This document shows positions 3,648 through 60,664 of a stretch of 64,000 bases of DNA, one piece after another. The stretch's first letter is position 1, and the number at the start of each line of letters is the position of its first letter. The translations under genes and the position numbers were made by a program. The notes beneath the pieces were generated by a model. That model did not search any database and was not told the origin of the DNA. It saw nothing but the letters and a program-made list of their open reading frames with translations. The stretch is from Sphingobacterium detergens (lineage in GTDB: Bacteria; Bacteroidota; Bacteroidia; Sphingobacteriales; Sphingobacteriaceae): the NCBI RefSeq assembly GCF_003610355.1, contig NZ_RAPY01000002.1, positions 806,001-870,000 of the forward strand, written 5' to 3'.

Positions 3648-5411
3648 CTAAGTATTGTAAATCGCCTCAACCTCTTTTTCATACTTCTGAAGAATGATTT
3701 TTCGCTTCATCTTTAAGGTGGGGGTTAATTCACCCGTCTCTATTGTCATTTCATTTGGAATAATTGCAAATTTCTTGATCTGCTCCCAGTTACCAAAATT
3801 TTGATTGATGCGATTGAGTTCGGACTCAATCTGCTGTCTAACTTCAGGATGGTTCAGGAATTCTATTTTTGACAATTTTGCCAATGAAGGAGCGGAGTTC
3901 TTGCTCCATTCCAAAAGATTGACATAATTTGGAACAATTAAAGCTGCTGGGAATTTTCGGGATTCGCCGATCACCATGACCTGTTCAATAAAAGAAGATT
4001 CTACGATCTTGGACTCAAGCTGTTGGGGAACAATATATTTGCCGCCAGAAGTCTTGAACATCTCTTTCTTGCGGTCTACTATTTTCAGAAACTTGCCGTC
4101 AACCCATTGACCGATATCTCCAGTATATAGCCAACCATCTTTGAGTACCTCAGCAGTGGCTTCTTCATTTTTATAATAGCCAAGCATATTGTTTTCACCT
4201 TTGGTGAGGATCTCCCCATCTTCGGCAAGTTTGATTTCAATATTAATCAATGGTAGACCGACTGTACCGATTTTCATTCCTCTTTTAAAGCAGTTTACAG
4301 CAATACAGGGGCCTGCTTCGGTTAGACCGTAACCTTCATAAATAGGGATTCCGGCAGCCATATACAAGCGGATTAATCTTTCTTGTAAAGCAGCACTGCC
4401 CGATGCAACCCCTTTGATGTCCCCTCCCAAGGCCTCCCGCCATTTTGAAAAGACGAGTTTTCTTGCAATACTTAATTTGATAGCATACCACCAAGAACGG
4501 TTCTCTAATGTGTATTGTTCACCGACACGAAGAGACCAGAAGAATATCTTGCGTTTGAATCCAGTCAGTTTTTCACCGGTTGCAATAATTTTTTCATATA
4601 CTTTTTCAAGTACACGGGGCACAGCTGAAAAGATATGTGGTCGGACTGATTTGAAATCTTCTCCAATGGTATCAATCGACTGGGCAAAAAAGATTGTTAA
4701 ACCCTTATACATATAGACATATTGGAAGACACGTTCGTAGGCATGGCAAACGGGCAGAAAGGAAAGCGCTCGGTCTCCGCGTCCGACAGGGAAGGAGTAC
4801 TCACTACTCATGGTATCGGCCAATAGATTGCGGTGGGCCAGCATAACTCCCTTCGGATTTCCGGTTGTACCTGATGTGTAAATGATGGAAGCGAGGCTCT
4901 CGGTACCAACGGCATTTCGAAGTGTCTCAAGCTGCTCATCAGTGATGGAAGCACCATCAGCAACGAAACTCTGCCAATGCGGTATATCCTCTTCTATGTC
5001 TAAACTAAAAATATGTTCAAGGAGTGGACATGAGTCTCTGATCGAAGTGATCTTCGTATATAGCTTTTTTGAGCTTACGATACAATTTTTAATCTCAGCA
5101 TGGTTGAATATAAAGCTGTAATCTGATTCAGAGATATTCGGATAAATCGCGACAACCACAGCACCAATCTGTTGGATTGCAAAATCAAGAACATTCCATT
5201 CGATGCGGTTTTCACTGATTAAAGCAACTTTTTCACCTACTTGGACACCGTGGGCAATCAGACCTTTGGATACCTGATTGACACGTTCAATAAATTCTGT
5301 ATTACTTACCGCTACCCAATTCGCTCCGTCTTTGTAGGAAAACATAGGAAACCCAGGTGCAGTTTCTTGTTGCAAATAGGCTAAATCAAATAATCTTGTT
5401 GCTGTTGGCAT
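3648..5411 (-). CDS. Long-chain fatty acid-CoA ligase (AMP-forming)
   Basis: A member of the ANL adenylating superfamily that activates long-chain fatty acids to acyl-CoA through an acyl-AMP intermediate. The 587 residues include the P-loop-like motif YTSGTTGNPKG (about 180-190), the GYGLTEAGP motif, and YTGDIG followed by VDRKKEMFKTSGGKYIVP, which is the hinge region of FadD/Faa-type enzymes. Length and motif order fit the long-chain acyl-CoA synthetase group common in Bacteroidota (COG1022 type). No signal peptide is present, so it is cytoplasmic or membrane-associated. It is monocistronic and lies between two terminators. Confidence 0.92.
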   Translation of the reverse strand: MPTATRLFDLAYLQQETAPGFPMFSYKDGANWVAVSNTEFIERVNQVSKGLIAHGVQVGEKVALISENRIEWNVLDFAIQQIGAVVVAIYPNISESDYSFIFNHAEIKNCIVSSKKLYTKITSIRDSCPLLEHIFSLDIEEDIPHWQSFVADGASITDEQLETLRNAVGTESLASIIYTSGTTGNPKGVMLAHRNLLADTMSSEYSFPVGRGDRALSFLPVCHAYERVFQYVYMYKGLTIFFAQSIDTIGEDFKSVRPHIFSAVPRVLEKVYEKIIATGEKLTGFKRKIFFWSLRVGEQYTLENRSWWYAIKLSIARKLVFSKWREALGGDIKGVASGSAALQERLIRLYMAAGIPIYEGYGLTEAGPCIAVNCFKRGMKIGTVGLPLINIEIKLAEDGEILTKGENNMLGYYKNEEATAEVLKDGWLYTGDIGQWVDGKFLKIVDRKKEMFKTSGGKYIVPQQLESKIVESSFIEQVMVIGESRKFPAALIVPNYVNLLEWSKNSAPSLAKLSKIEFLNHPEVRQQIESELNRINQNFGNWEQIKKFAIIPNEMTIETGELTPTLKMKRKIILQKYEKEVEAIYNT

Positions 5412-9587: not shown

Positions 9588-12500
9588 ATGAAATTTAAGC
9601 AATACGTTACGCAAAACGGTATTAAGTTTATGATAAGGACATCGTTGGTAGGTTTACTTCTTTCGATCGGATCGGCCGAAATGCTTTTAGCTTCGGGCGC
9701 ATACGGCCAGTTACTCAATAAAAAGATTACAGTTTCTTTTAGTGAATCCAATATTCCAGCGGCTTTCGAACGTTTGGAATCCCAAAATATACATATCGCT
9801 TTCGATGCTGCGAAATATAATTTGGCAAAGAAAAAGGTAGATGCCAAGATTTTTAAAAGTAACAGCGTTCGGGATGTCATGCGTTATCTGCTCAGGGAGA
9901 CTGACCTGATGGCTCAAGACAACGGTGTTTATATTACATTGGTCGAAAAGCCGGTACAGCAGGATGGGCGCATCTCAGGTAAAGTTATTGATGATCGCGG
10001 TCAGCCTTTGGCCAATGCCAGTATCAAACTGATCGGTGTCAATAAATCAACACAGAGCGGTATCGATGGTAGCTATCTTTTGAATGCTGAACCGGGAACC
10101 TACATACTGGAAGTCAGTTATCTCTCTTACCAGACCCAACGTATTGAGGGGGTCAAAATACAGGCTGGACAAAGGACTGGATTAAATATTGCCATGAAGA
10201 CGTTGGTAAATGCGCTGGAAACGGCTGTTGTCAGCGTATCGTTTAAGAAAGCTTCCGTAGCTGGATTGTATGCGGTACAAAAAAATGCAGCTTCGGTGAC
10301 GGATGGAATATCCGCCGAACAGATCGCCCGCACACCAGACAATGATATGGGGCAGGTTTTAAAACGTGTTACCGGATTGACGACTGTCAATAACCGGAAC
10401 GTCATTGTACGGGGGATGTCCGACCGCTACAATCAGGCCATGCTGGATGGGGTGGTGATTCCGAGTACTTCGCAGAATAGACGTGATTTTTCCTTTGATA
10501 TTATTCCGACAGAGATGGTGAGCTCAGTGGTGGTCAATAAAACGGCAACACCGGATGTATCCGCTGAATTTTCGGGTGGACAGGTTTCTGTGAATACATT
10601 GGATATTCCGGAGAAGAATTTTACGACAATACAATATGGGATAGGTGGTAATTCCCGTACAACTGGCAAAGACTTTTATCGGCTGGGGGAACGGCATACG
10701 AGTGAATATTTCGGTTTCTTTGACAAATCGTCTAAAATGCCCGATGAAATAAAAACTTGGCAGTGGAACAGTCGGGCGATACAATTGGATGCGCCTCCCG
10801 GCTATATTTTGACTGATCCCGAATTGAACAATACCCCTTTAAATCCAACGGAGTTTGGCGATGCAGTGAAATATAACGATTTAGATGCTATCGCACAGTC
10901 CAAGCGTTTTAATAATGATGCATTGCGACAATATAAGTATAAAGCATACCCCAATCAGAATATGCGTTTTTCGCTTGGACGGGTTCACGAATTAAATAAT
11001 GGACAGCGATTAGGGTTTGTGGCATCCGCAAATTTTAGAAACGAACAAAACATTACTGCATTTAATAATGTACGTAATTCGGTAAGTATCAATAATTACA
11101 TTGATAGTATAGGTCTCGGTGACAATGGAGCAGGAACATCCTATCGCTTCAATAGCAGTGGCGGATTAATGGCCAATATGGGTTGGCAGGGACAGGTTTT
11201 TAAAGTTTCCTTAAAGAACATGTATGCGCGTACGTACAGTGATATTTATAATGAGTCTATTCAAAAACCTTATAGTGATTCTAATCCTGAAGTAAGCAAA
11301 CTGATTTATCAATTGCCTGAAGCAATGTCTTTGCAGCAACACCAATTGGTAGGAGAATATCAATTGCCGTGGGCAATAAAAGCTGAAGGAATGATTACTG
11401 TTAACAAAATCAAACAGCAAATTTTAGATGAACGAAAACTTTCCTATAGGGTAACCACTATGATAGATGATATTCCTTATTTTCAAACCCCGGGGCTATT
11501 AACTCACCGTAGTTCATCTGTGGTGGGGATTTTCAGGGACTCTCGAAGATGGACAAATATCGATGAGACAGATTATAATTGGAGCGCGGCTTTTTCGCGA
11601 AAATTCAACGAAAATACAGCTGTTCCAACGTTGGTGAAATTAGGCTATCAGGCCTGGTCTAAGAAGAGAGCGTTGGATTTATTTAATTTTGTCCCTTGGA
11701 CGAGAGCATGGGCAGAGGGTACTACGAATCAATTGCCTCCCGAGATAGAAATCCCTTATGCTCAGTTATTCAGCGCTGATAATATTGGAAATGGAAACGG
11801 GCAGGCCTATTACTACGCAGATGCATTGGGCGGTCGATATTATGATGGTAAAATGTCTTCACAAGCAGTGTATCTGATGGCAGATCAAATGCTATGGCAT
11901 AAATTGCGTTTGGTATATGGTGTTCGTGCAGAATATTTTAATTTAAACTCTAAGCAGGAAGAATTATATAGGAGAACTTATCAGGATGAGCCAGATCCCA
12001 ATGACGTCCAAAGGCATCGTTTTGGTGTAAAAGAAAATAACTGGCGGTTTTTGCCCTCTATTAATGCTACCTATAAGGTAACATCCGATTTCAATATTCG
12101 AAGTAGTTATTCAAGGACAGTAGTTAGGCCAGATTTTAGAGAAGTGGGCATGTTTGCCATGTATGATTATGAGTTAGACGGTTACGTTTATGGAGAGCAA
12201 GTTAAATCCACCTTGATCGATAATGTAGATCTTCGATTTGAATGGTATCCATCTCCGGGGGAAATAATTTCAATAACAGGATACTATAAATACTTGGATA
12301 AACCCATAGAACTTGTTCATAGCGGGGGGAACACGTATACTTTCGCCAACATGGAAAATGCGAAAAATCTTGGCCTTGAAATGGAGATTAGGAAAAATTT
12401 GACATTTATATCGGATCAGGACTGGTTAAAAGACCTATTTATATATGCCAACGGAACATTGCTCAAATCGAAGGTTAATGTCTTAAGTCATTGGGAATGG

Positions 12501-58045: not shown

Positions 58046-58140
58046 TTGTATTGAATCTCATATATCCTAGTCTTTTGGGAGGACTTACAATCAAAAGTAC
58101 AATGTAAGAGAATACATTGTACTTAACAAATTTCTAGTTT

Positions 58141-58151
58141 AAAAAACAGAA
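58141..58151 (-). terminator. U-run terminator at the end of the Y RNA array
   Basis: The closing stem of the third RNA (TTCTG pairing with CAGAA) is followed directly by TTTTTT on the minus strand, a natural intrinsic stop for the array. Confidence 0.65.
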
Positions 58152-58275
58152 GCAAAAAGCAACAATAGTGGGGGCTAGTCATTGCCGGATTCGAACCGGA
58201 TAATCTTGTTGATTTTACAACTTCATTATTCCTCCCCTTAACGGTGACGAAGTAACTATCGTTTACGGCATTCTG
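58147..58275 (-). ncRNA. Y RNA-like non-coding RNA 3
   Basis: A predicted 129-nt RNA. The outer stem pairs CAGAA (58271-58275) with TTCTG (58147-58151). After an internal loop holding the shared TGCCGTA, a 9-bp helix pairs AACGATAGT (58255-58263) with ACTATTGTT (58161-58169). The common motif AGTTACTTCG follows (58248-58257). The inner module has a GGGG/CCCC stem (58234-58237 with 58170-58174), a GTTG/CAAC hairpin and a T-arm-like hairpin CCGG-TTCGAAT-CCGG (58185-58199). The D arm is not recognisable, so this is a divergent Y RNA rather than a clean tRNA mimic. It ends in a U-run. Confidence 0.6.
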
Positions 58276-58280
58276 TTTAG

Positions 58281-58411
58281 AATCAGAAAGGCAACTGACG
58301 AAAAGAGTTTTTTCCGACGTTTTCGATATCGTCTATCTAGAACTGATCGGAAGCAGGATTTGAACCTGCCATTGGACCGAAGTAACTCTTTTCTACGGCA
58401 CTTATCCAATT
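58281..58411 (-). ncRNA. Y RNA-like non-coding RNA 2
   Basis: A predicted 131-nt RNA. The outer helix pairs AATTGGATAAG (58401-58411) with CTTTCTGATT (58281-58290), with one bulged U. An internal loop with TGCCGTA follows, then a perfect 10-bp helix GAAAAGAGTT/AACTCTTTTC (58384-58393 with 58300-58309). The conserved AGTTACTTCG (58378-58387) overlaps this. The module keeps a perfect 5-bp T arm, GCAGG-TTCAAAT-CCTGC (58353-58369), and a closing TTCCGA/TCGGAA stem. The D arm is degenerate. It starts eight bases after RNA 1 and ends five bases before RNA 3. Confidence 0.65.
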
Positions 58412-58419
58412 TTATCATA

Positions 58420-58557
58420 AAGCAAGGTAACTAACGAAAAGAGACTGTTTTTCCTGCTCTACCAACTGAGCTACTCTATATACCTATAGAGACAGGACTC
58501 GAACCTGTGACACGGGCAACCCAAATGCGAAGTAACTCTTTTCTACGACACTTGCTT
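58420..58557 (-). ncRNA. yrlA: YrlA-type Y RNA with circularly permuted tRNA-like module (RNA 1)
   Basis: A predicted 138-nt RNA. The terminal stem pairs AAGCAAG (58551-58557) with CTTGCTT (58420-58426). After an internal loop containing TGTCGTA, GAAAAGAG (58536-58543) pairs with CTCTTTTC (58436-58443). Inside, in 3'-half-first order, lie a T arm ACAGG-TTCGAGT-CCTGT (58492-58508), a 7-bp acceptor stem CTCTATA/TATAGAG closed by a GGTA tetraloop (58474-58491), U8-A9, and a D arm GCTC-AGTTGGTA-GAGC with the GG pair (58456-58471). There is no free CCA end. This is the architecture of YrlA RNAs, which tether Ro/Rsr proteins to partners. It lies just downstream of the TROVE gene. Confidence 0.85.
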
Positions 58558-58577
58558 ATTTTATTCCTTTGATTAAT

Positions 58578-58599
58578 CCCGCAGCCAAATTACTGCGGG
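58578..58599 (-). promoter_or_regulatory. Hairpin between the TROVE gene and the Y RNA array
   Basis: CCCGCAG pairs with CTGCGGG (7 bp, 8-base loop) seven bases after the TROVE stop codon, with no U-run behind it. It may be an mRNA-end stabiliser, a leaky terminator or a processing signal that separates Y RNA from mRNA. Confidence 0.5.
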
Positions 58600-58605
58600 A
58601 TGATC

Positions 58606-60123
58606 TTATATTTCCACTTGATGGATCTGTTTGACTGCAGATAGGGCATTGTCCATGCCAGAAAGTATATCAAATACTTTATCCGACCAGCCTGCTAACA
58701 GATAAACATCATTTTGTTTAACATCTATGGGCTGTTTTCCATATCCCGCCAAATCGAATAGGTAGAGTTTCGCCGTTGGAGCTAAACTTTTGTAATTATT
58801 CCATGACTTCTCTAAAGAATTGCCATTATGATTACTATCCCATAATTGACAGTCAGTAAATATCATTACTTTATCCACAATCTTTTTTCTACGGATTAGA
58901 TCGTCCACGACCAGGTATCCATTTGTCGAATAACCCACTTCACCTTCTCGTTTGTAATACTCCATTACATTCGTCAGCACCTGATGTTTAGGCATATTGA
59001 TTATTTTGTATGTATCACCGAATATCCCTGTTGTTACATCTTTACACTGTGATTGTAATAGCATCGCTAACATTAGGCCCACATCATACAGTAAAACCGT
59101 ACTTTTTGCCGAAATAGGCTTTTGCATAGATCCTGAAACATCACAGGCAATCACAACCGAAGTCTCAAAACCGAAGCCTTTTATATTTCTGGCACTGCAT
59201 AATGTGGCATCTTCTAGTGCAGTCAATACAGTTGATGTTAAACCCGATTTCAGCACTTTCAACTCTCTATAAGCTGAAAGAAATCTGAACGGAAGTTGCC
59301 TAGAGTTGAGTACTGCTTGCTCATTCGATAGATAATTGCAGACCATCAACACATGTTGTGCTGATACGTTAGCCTCCAGTATATTACGGAGATTTCTGAG
59401 CAAAGCCATATACCCCATTTTTTTACTTTCGATCAACTCTTCCCATTTTCTGGCGAAAGCATCAGATCTGGCCAGGGTGTTATCAAAATTTTCCTGACCC
59501 AATTTAGAAAGTTCCGTTTCCCAAGTATAGGCGGTCGAAAGATTATCCGCTGCGATTCGGTTAAAAATAGCCTGCTGTTGATCGTTCTTAGGACTAGGGT
59601 GTACAAGAAAAAGCGCATCTTTTAACTTAATTTCAGCTTCCCTGTTATATTTTGCAAATTGGTATTCATCAAATCTGTTAAAAGAGGCTACAAGACCTTT
59701 TTGGATTTGCTTGGAAAGTCTACTTAACTTTTTCGCTCCATTTCTGTTATTTGCAATCTGGTAATAGGCCAGAAGTTCAGTTATCTCGTCAGCACGCAAT
59801 ACTACCCGGCTCACTGTTTTACTAACGATCGACTCGCCAGAGGCTTTCTTCGCTAATTCGACAGCTAGTACTATCGGGATGGACCTTAAGTTCATCACTG
59901 TACGTGCATAGACGGCGAGTTTGGCAACAAATATCGATTCGCATGTCATGACCAACTCCTTGATTCGATTTAATCTACTGTTGCCGCTTTCATAAAATGA
60001 ATCATTCAATCCAGTTGTGACTACCGTAGTATACAATTCCAGTTCTGGTGTCATGAGATAAGCCTTTGCTTTTTCATGATTCGTAACCAGCTGTTTTTTT
60101 GTGTTGAGGAAGTTGAATTTCAT
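58606..60123 (-). CDS. rsr: TROVE domain protein, Ro60/Rsr orthologue
   Basis: A ring-shaped RNA-binding protein that holds Y RNA and misfolded or damaged RNA ends. From the ATG at 60123 it has 505 residues. The helical TROVE repeats (about 10-320) include KLKDALFLVHPSPKN and YMALLRNLRNI, conserved family segments. The C-terminal vWA domain (about 320-495) has an intact MIDAS, DVSGSM, with a later TDCQLW. The chosen start gives MKFNFLNTKKQLVTNHE, the usual opening; an upstream in-frame ATG at 60174 adds 17 residues. Three Y RNA-like genes follow on the same strand. No RtcB ligase, RtcA cyclase or nuclease is adjacent in the window. Confidence 0.93.
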   Translation of the reverse strand: MKFNFLNTKKQLVTNHEKAKAYLMTPELELYTTVVTTGLNDSFYESGNSRLNRIKELVMTCESIFVAKLAVYARTVMNLRSIPIVLAVELAKKASGESIVSKTVSRVVLRADEITELLAYYQIANNRNGAKKLSRLSKQIQKGLVASFNRFDEYQFAKYNREAEIKLKDALFLVHPSPKNDQQQAIFNRIAADNLSTAYTWETELSKLGQENFDNTLARSDAFARKWEELIESKKMGYMALLRNLRNILEANVSAQHVLMVCNYLSNEQAVLNSRQLPFRFLSAYRELKVLKSGLTSTVLTALEDATLCSARNIKGFGFETSVVIACDVSGSMQKPISAKSTVLLYDVGLMLAMLLQSQCKDVTTGIFGDTYKIINMPKHQVLTNVMEYYKREGEVGYSTNGYLVVDDLIRRKKIVDKVMIFTDCQLWDSNHNGNSLEKSWNNYKSLAPTAKLYLFDLAGYGKQPIDVKQNDVYLLAGWSDKVFDILSGMDNALSAVKQIHQVEI

Positions 60124-60174
60124 AATCATTACATTATCGTTAAACATTTGTGCCAGACTATTCTGAACTGACAT

Positions 60175-60664
60175 TACAAAATTGCAAGCTGACCTACGCG
60201 TTATATGTGCGCAATTAGAGGTTAATGTGTGATTAATGTTTATTTTGCTGATTATTAGATTTTTATTTTTTTTTATTTCGAAAATAAAATGGCTTTGGAT
60301 AAATGAGTACGCAGATTTATTGCGTAGTTATCTTGTGGGGTAGCGCTAATTGATATAACAACTTTAGGTTATTACTTGTTTTGTAGGGTAAATATGCCAT
60401 TAGAAAAAAAATATGGTGGATATATAATACTTTGTAAGCTAGGGGTAGTTCTTTGAATATGTAAAAGGATAAATATTCAGAATACTGACCTGAGCTTAGC
60501 TCGTATTTTTTGATAATTCCCACCCTTTTGGGTAGAATGCTAATAAATTGGTTAATGTTCAGGAATAGATATCGAGCAATAAAAACGAGTTAGTGCCCCA
60601 ATATGGGATGGTGTTACGATAAGCTAGACATTGCATTTATTCAACAGAGTCAAGAGCATGTTCA
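60175..60664. other. Intergenic region upstream of the TROVE gene
   Basis: I see no gene. Weak hairpins are present (ACGCA/TGCGT near 60310-60325; ACCC-TTTT-GGGT near 60523-60534). The sequence is AT-rich, with a T-rich tract near 60260-60285. I found no convincing TAnnTTTG promoter on the minus strand, so the TROVE operon promoter is unassigned and may use another sigma factor. Confidence 0.4.

Follow-up and report, generated by a model that had tools for sequence, protein, structure and literature searches.

In 2014 Chen reportedly described probable Y RNAs close to Ro60 in over 250 species, with at least one RNA per species carrying a tRNA-like domain. Published work describes a division of labour within the RNA: the basal stem tethers Rsr and PNPase is bound by the tRNA-like part, and in Salmonella the operon is turned on by broken tRNAs, according to passages in two accounts (PMC8394870, PMC7790460). 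As portrayed in the same passages (PMC7790460, PMC8394870), the Salmonella rsr-yrlBA-rtcBA operon encodes Ro60 (Rsr) together with at least two Y RNAs, one of them the tRNA mimic YrlA, and has a link to RtcB. Ro60 and multiple Y RNAs, one with a YrlA-type part, recur in the window analysed here, a stretch of 64,000 nucleotides from Sphingobacterium detergens, for which a link to RtcB is suggested. Unlike the Salmonella operon, the window has three Y RNAs, and RtcB is non-adjacent; in place of the sigma-54 activator RtcR of Salmonella there are a predicted WYL regulator and a palindromic site. Rsr of Deinococcus radiodurans, which works with PNPase in RYPER, shares with the window the Ro60 fold (PDB 2nvo) and the stem-plus-insert layout of its RNA, although the Deinococcus_Y_RNA model reaches only E 0.26 on RNA3 of the window. 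The Ro60 protein of Thermus phage phiLo (9l5y) matches that of the window by sequence. TROVE loci on four viral contigs (L088–L091) also carry RNAs of the window's type (matched by model R1, described below), but there the RNAs lie upstream of the TROVE gene. A connection with lupus has been drawn for the Ro60 ribonucleoproteins of commensal bacteria (Greiling et al. 2018, as cited in PMC8394870), and their RNA partners are therefore of wider interest. In a literature search, no paper describing multi-Y arrays in Bacteroidetes was recognised; part of what follows may already be in print.

The Ro60 gene and its adjacent RNAs

The 522-aa ORF of the locus (Table 1) matches Pfam TROVE at 8.9e-30 and vWA_Ro60 at 3.7e-8. 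Its AlphaFold model, built on an alignment of 43 sequences, has a mean pLDDT of 81.9, and each of the 13 PDB matches to the predicted fold at E ≤ 0.001 is a Ro60/TROVE structure, including 9kop, 9l5y, 1yvp, 2i91 and 2nvo, the last being the D. radiodurans Rsr. At the sequence level, the PDB matches are 9l5y and 9kop only. Residues D345, S347 and S349 of the DVSGS motif are invariant across the 43 aligned sequences, and the nearest TROVE protein among named genomes, that of Sphingobacterium puteale, is 96% identical. By Pfam, the predicted structure and the PDB comparison, the product is a Ro60/Rsr protein with a TROVE domain, a vWA domain and the Ro60 fold, in agreement with the clear TROVE/vWA gene recognised in an earlier note on this DNA.

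Table 1. Features of the Ro60 locus, with positions in the window
Feature	Position	Strand	Evidence
Rsr/Ro60 (TROVE + vWA) protein, 522 aa	58606..60174	-	Pfam, AlphaFold model, PDB matches
Y RNA 1, 138 nt	58420..58557	-	fold; YrlA match; model R1 39.0 bits
Y RNA 2, 131 nt	58281..58411	-	fold; model R1 33.6 bits, E 8.8e-5 for one genome
Y RNA 3, 133 nt, class-C, U-run at end	58145..58277	-	alignment A4; model matches
12-bp hairpin past the array, candidate terminator, T tail weak	58095..58124	-	hairpin scan
Palindromic operator-like site, 1 mismatch to ACTRCGCA-N7-TGCGYAGT, proposed WYL site	60306..60328	.	pattern search
Second, weaker operator-like site, 3 mismatches	60193..60215	.	pattern search

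Three Y RNAs lie on the minus strand downstream of this gene, as the earlier note had proposed, and folds, covariation, conservation and genome-wide co-occurrence all speak for them. RNA1 follows the TROVE gene after 48 bases, and the gaps within the array are 8 bases (RNA1–RNA2) and 3 bases (RNA2–RNA3), not the 5–8 bases first given. The array ends, as had been seen, at one U-run, which belongs to RNA3 and is followed by the 12-bp hairpin, present in the window and in four Sphingobacterium loci aligned to it. All three RNAs share a lower stem, an internal TGYCGTA, an 8-bp upper stem with TTACTTCG after it, and a loop on the 3' side; the length of this loop was 9 bases for 277 of the 339 well-paired cases among relatives in the stem pairing test. 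The marks of bacterial Y RNAs are thus found together: a long covarying stem uniting the 5' and 3' ends, a place beside rsr and, in at least one RNA (here RNA1), a tRNA-like domain.

The inserts differ from one RNA to the next. In RNA1, a Ro stem of 7-bp and 8-bp parts encloses a permuted tRNA module of the YrlA type, with a T-arm (58492-58508), an acceptor hairpin (58474-58491) and a D-arm (58456-58471). RNA2 has a bulged lower stem, an 8-bp upper stem, a T-arm (58353-58369) and a second hairpin; no D-arm was seen on inspection of its fold. RNA3 holds GGGGAGGAAT, a small hairpin (58208-58221) and the T-arm TATCCGGTTCGAATCCGGCA (58185-58199), then CCCC, so that GGGG and CCCC flank the insert. 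Both are near-invariant in the alignment, and covariation therefore gives their pairing no support; in the minimum free energy (MFE) fold they are not paired as a single helix. The T-arm context of RNA3 differs from that of RNA1 and RNA2, and RNA3 belongs to a separate conserved class. The description of three like RNAs enclosing a T-arm module thus stands for the folds, each of which is as described, and not for the inserts.

Rfam at gathering scores has no match anywhere in the window. With a lax cut-off, YrlA (RF02553) matches RNA1 over 58453-58515 with 39.2 bits and E 3.8e-7, against a gathering score of 69; the alignment spans model positions 24-84 and takes in the T-arm, acceptor and D-arm, whereas the outer stem of RNA1 is left unaligned. 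Deinococcus_Y_RNA (RF01053) on RNA3 attains 21.4 bits, against a gathering score of 80, and is not significant. Besides these two there are six further lax matches, the best being VrrA (E 0.078). The covariance-model check suggested in the earlier note has thus yielded a lax YrlA match on RNA1 and nothing at gathering scores. In 11 array loci of relatives, Rfam at gathering score likewise leaves every Y RNA unnamed; its five matches there comprise three to Flavo-1, one to Acido-Lenti-1 and one to tRNA, the last of which covers two array units in L045.

Folding and pairing of the stems

RNA1 and RNA2 fold with z scores of -2.5 and -2.3 (3 and 4 of 200 shuffles equally good, respectively). RNA3 has a z score of only -1.4, with 19 of 200 shuffles equally good, so that the evidence for RNA3 is comparative and not energetic. 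The whole 472-nt stretch has a z score of -3.2, with 0 of 100 shuffles as good, and in its MFE structure the 5' half of RNA1 is joined to the 3' half of RNA2. Such a fold would fit one long structured RNA, for example a 3' UTR element or an attenuator, in place of three Y RNAs, and so would the narrow gaps (8 and 3 bases) and the one terminator-like hairpin on the minus strand. The whole-array fold is misleading, however, because the upper stem is identical in RNA1 and RNA2. Each half finds a much better partner in its own region than in the other RNAs of its locus, and the number and type of units differ among loci, so that a single long RNA is a quite improbable account.

The pairing of the halves was measured on half-RNAs collected by their 5' motifs alone, for which the best partner region was sought with an ungapped 7+8 stem score, in 81 sources comprising 80 TROVE loci and the window. 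The 392 halves thus collected, from 80 of the 81 sources, reach a score of at least 11 with their own 3' region in 86.5% of cases, compared with 4.6% for regions of other loci, 5.7% for other RNAs of the same locus and 1.0% for shuffled sequences. RNA1 scores 15.0 with its own region (11.4 and 9.4 with those of the other two RNAs), and RNA3 scores 14.6 (7.4 and 9.2). RNA2, whose own lower stem is bulged, scores 11.0 with itself against 12.0 with the 3' region of RNA1, its own score being understated by the ungapped test. The proposal that each stem is complementary only to itself is therefore upheld for RNA1 and RNA3 but not, in the ungapped test, for RNA2. In alignment A5, changes on both sides occur at 31 of 34 pairs (28.5 in shuffles), and cells with double changes number 1204, against 368 in shuffled alignments and 147-213 when the alignment is slid; A5 was fitted to the model, and its covariation is not taken as the main proof. 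Together with the motif-only halves, it confirms that the pairing is backed by covariation.

Linkage of the RNAs to TROVE

Covariance model R1 was trained on 18 RNA3-type sequences, which match it by construction; among the three RNAs of the window, only RNA3 was in the training set. In 87 sources, mostly TROVE neighbourhoods, R1 has 292 matches, the 18 training sequences included, and 291 of them lie on the TROVE strand; RNA2 is absent from the matches of this search at E ≤ 0.01. The RNA3 class appears above 90 bits in 26 other loci, 17 of which were in the training set; another 3 are near-identical Sphingobacterium loci, the remaining 6 being new. The 6.7-Mb genome of S. detergens itself contains, at E ≤ 0.001, exactly three matches, which are the three RNAs (RNA3, 2.4e-34; RNA1, 3.0e-6; RNA2, 8.8e-5).

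Across 151 genomes of the order, R1 matches were found in 22 and Pfam TROVE in 21, all of the latter being among the former (genome-wide search with stricter filters, 21 candidates scored per genome). Every one of the 21 genomes with TROVE thus has the RNAs, against 1 of the 130 without it. The one exception, genome G135, has five R1 matches (L092, C2:90500-96500), no Pfam TROVE and an ORF for a DDE transposase nearby, and it is also outside the set of genomes with the WYL ortholog considered below. One TROVE-bearing genome, G056, has two more weak R1 matches on another contig (L093, C17:736695-736932).

Arrays beside related TROVE genes

A stem scanner was applied to the loci of the best 80 of 170 relatives, a choice that tilts the counts toward near relatives; the survey also took in four viral contigs. 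At least one adjacent Y RNA was detected in 80 of the 80 TROVE loci and at least three in 67, with a median of four, when only matches up to 3.5 kb downstream were counted and enclosing matches, which inflate the counts, were dropped. Array size peaks in Chryseobacterium, where the matches at a score of at least 22.5 number 10 in one locus and 11 in another. A layout with several RNAs is general in the sampled related loci. The earlier note suggested looking for the same layout beside the TROVE genes of relatives, where it is indeed found; its view of a tight triple array as unusual in Bacteroidota is not borne out among these relatives.

The scanner gave 349 matches and misses degenerate members: in L011 about eight are visible by eye against three at the cut-off, and L004 appears without RNA2. 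As a strand control, 163 minus-strand matches compare with 524 on the TROVE strand at a score of at least 15.5. Above 22.5 the minus strand has one (L031 13338-13466), which is also matched by the covariance model and so may be a real RNA. Y RNA matches also occur upstream of TROVE, in L024:2499-3190, L059:1529-1757, L033, L044, L045 and L048. Among the viral contigs, L088 and L089 each carry three Y-like RNAs at 4494-4974 upstream of the TROVE gene, and L090 and L091 each have one R1 match upstream of TROVE.

The inserts appear to be varied, among them the permuted tRNA mimic, class C, a T-arm only, and a bare hairpin of about 72 nt. By a simple motif test, 116 of the 349 scanner matches lack a T-arm, as do 53 of the 56 RNAs shorter than 82 nt. 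These counts bear on the idea that the Y RNAs serve mainly as decoys for tRNA-cutting nucleases and not as gates of Ro60 or tethers of PNPase. Hughes et al. are cited in its favour, and many loci do have several RNAs bearing tRNA-like parts, but the part shared by all is the stem, and a T-arm is missing from the 116 matches. Decoying is compatible with gating or tethering, with no mutual exclusion between them; as the main role of the RNAs, it is unlikely.

ARAGORN was run on 79 of the 80 loci (all but L081). In 3 of the 79, tRNA genes lie within or around the TROVE/Y RNA islands: 17 in L011:3515-10038, 10 in L012:134-6264 and 9 in L034:7767-9073. A tally by position places inside the island 10 of the 47 Rfam tRNA matches of the L034 genome and 18 of the 51 of the L011 genome, and from this share they look like extra tRNA sets. 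Arrays of this kind might be decaying clusters of ordinary tRNA genes whose T-arms are leftovers, a thought to which the T-arm and D-arm motifs, and the real tRNA genes of these three islands, lend some colour. It was rejected and is hardly credible: ARAGORN finds no tRNA within the window, the acceptor strands of RNA1 are in permuted order, a covarying stem lies outside the tRNA part, the RNAs are linked to TROVE across genomes, and nearly all of the short RNAs counted above have no T-arm by the motif test.

A palindrome near TROVE, WYL and RtcB genes

Among 81 regions upstream of TROVE, 76 contain the palindrome ACTRCGCA-N7-TGCGYAGT with no more than 3 mismatches, compared with 17 of 893 control segments. 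Apart from the two sites of Table 1, the window has a third match, with 2 mismatches, far off at 11812-11834, the chance expectation being 0.36 matches. The shorter form CTRCGCAN7TGCGYA, which was made degenerate after the window's own site had been seen, has three perfect sites in the genome, near TROVE, near the gene of a WYL regulator and near a Band_7-RtcB pair. At up to one mismatch, there are 19 entries (some of them double readings of one site) against 6 for the reversed control, and for this reason only the perfect sites were used.

The WYL protein beside the perfect site is 54% identical to the regulator of L011. Its ORF as listed overlaps the palindrome, which is upstream only if a later ATG is the start. 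All 21 genomes with TROVE encode an ortholog of it (E ≤ 1e-60), as do 57 of the 130 without, and WYL domains are found by Pfam in 22 of 61 proteins upstream of TROVE in relatives (61 of 76 ORFs having been covered). The protein would bind the palindrome. On the RtcB side, the site lies about 860 bases before Band_7 and about 130 bases from a divergent 198-aa ORF with no Pfam match, so that it may serve that ORF instead.

Downstream of the arrays of relatives, RlaP was found in 15 and RtcB in 13 of 72 proteins scanned, these being chosen ORFs of which several share one locus. In the window, neither an upstream WYL gene nor a downstream RlaP or RtcB gene adjoins the TROVE locus; RtcB has no tblastn match in the window and is not among the three neighbouring proteins scanned, and RtcB is thus not adjacent to rsr, as it would be in an rtc RNA-repair operon. 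The array is therefore without RtcB locally, as the earlier note had it, but the genome has two RtcB genes, both outside the window, one of them behind the same palindrome as TROVE. This palindrome suggests a tie between the TROVE locus and RNA repair. In our reading, TROVE, WYL and Band_7-RtcB may form one scattered RNA-repair regulon, the parts of which would have moved apart.

The RtcB neighbourhoods (L086 and L087) have no full Y motif and no R1 match. In L086:10250-11130 (minus strand; C1, about 1.100 Mb), a leader of several hundred bases separates the perfect palindrome from Band_7-RtcB. It contains a pair of tRNA-like modules in permuted order (YrlA 35.1 bits, E 9.5e-6, short of the gathering score; fold z -4.3), and the full Ro-stem motif was not found in it. 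The leader is matched in 14 of 14 loci of the same genus (L097-L110), with Band_7 in 13 and, in L102, RtcB beside the leader; the strict palindrome is present in 8 of the 14. Matches to the leader in 51 of 60 genomes include a separate interspersed repeat (query 23-114).

Proposed organization and significance

We regard the locus, with a probability of roughly 0.85, as encoding a Ro60-Y RNA ribonucleoprotein, in which one promoter would lie under the palindrome, the Y RNAs would dock on the Ro60 ring, RtcB would be a partner and a WYL protein the regulator. Transcription probably starts at a promoter that the palindrome at 60306-60328 controls and takes in rsr and the three RNAs as a single unit; the transcript would end after RNA3, and the Y RNAs would then be cut out. 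Some close relatives have a hairpin between TROVE and RNA1, which is deleted in L003 and L004, and rsr and the RNAs could for that reason be separate units. Each Y RNA would bind the exterior of the ring via the common two-part stem, and the differing inserts (permuted tRNA mimic, T-arm with hairpin, class-C module) might gate the ring or bring a partner such as PNPase, by analogy with other bacterial Y RNAs. Together with the RNA ligase RtcB, the locus would act on damaged RNA, and its regulator would be a WYL-domain protein whose gene lies elsewhere.

A more general proposal, which we hold tentatively and at somewhat less than even odds, is that Ro60 in Bacteroidota is a single ring served by swappable Y RNAs, each with a constant docking stem and one of many inserts, within a WYL-controlled, scatterable regulon under one palindromic operator. 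At 81 TROVE loci, over 300 candidate Y RNAs emerge from a simple motif search and from a covariance model, and Rfam at gathering scores names none of those in the window or in the 11 loci scanned. The palindrome is a concrete candidate for a regulatory route to Ro60 and RtcB outside RtcR systems. With a constant Ro-binding stem and many inserts, the notion of Y RNAs as interchangeable adaptors becomes testable; if it is true, one Ro60 protein would have several adaptors, differing in what they bring or block.
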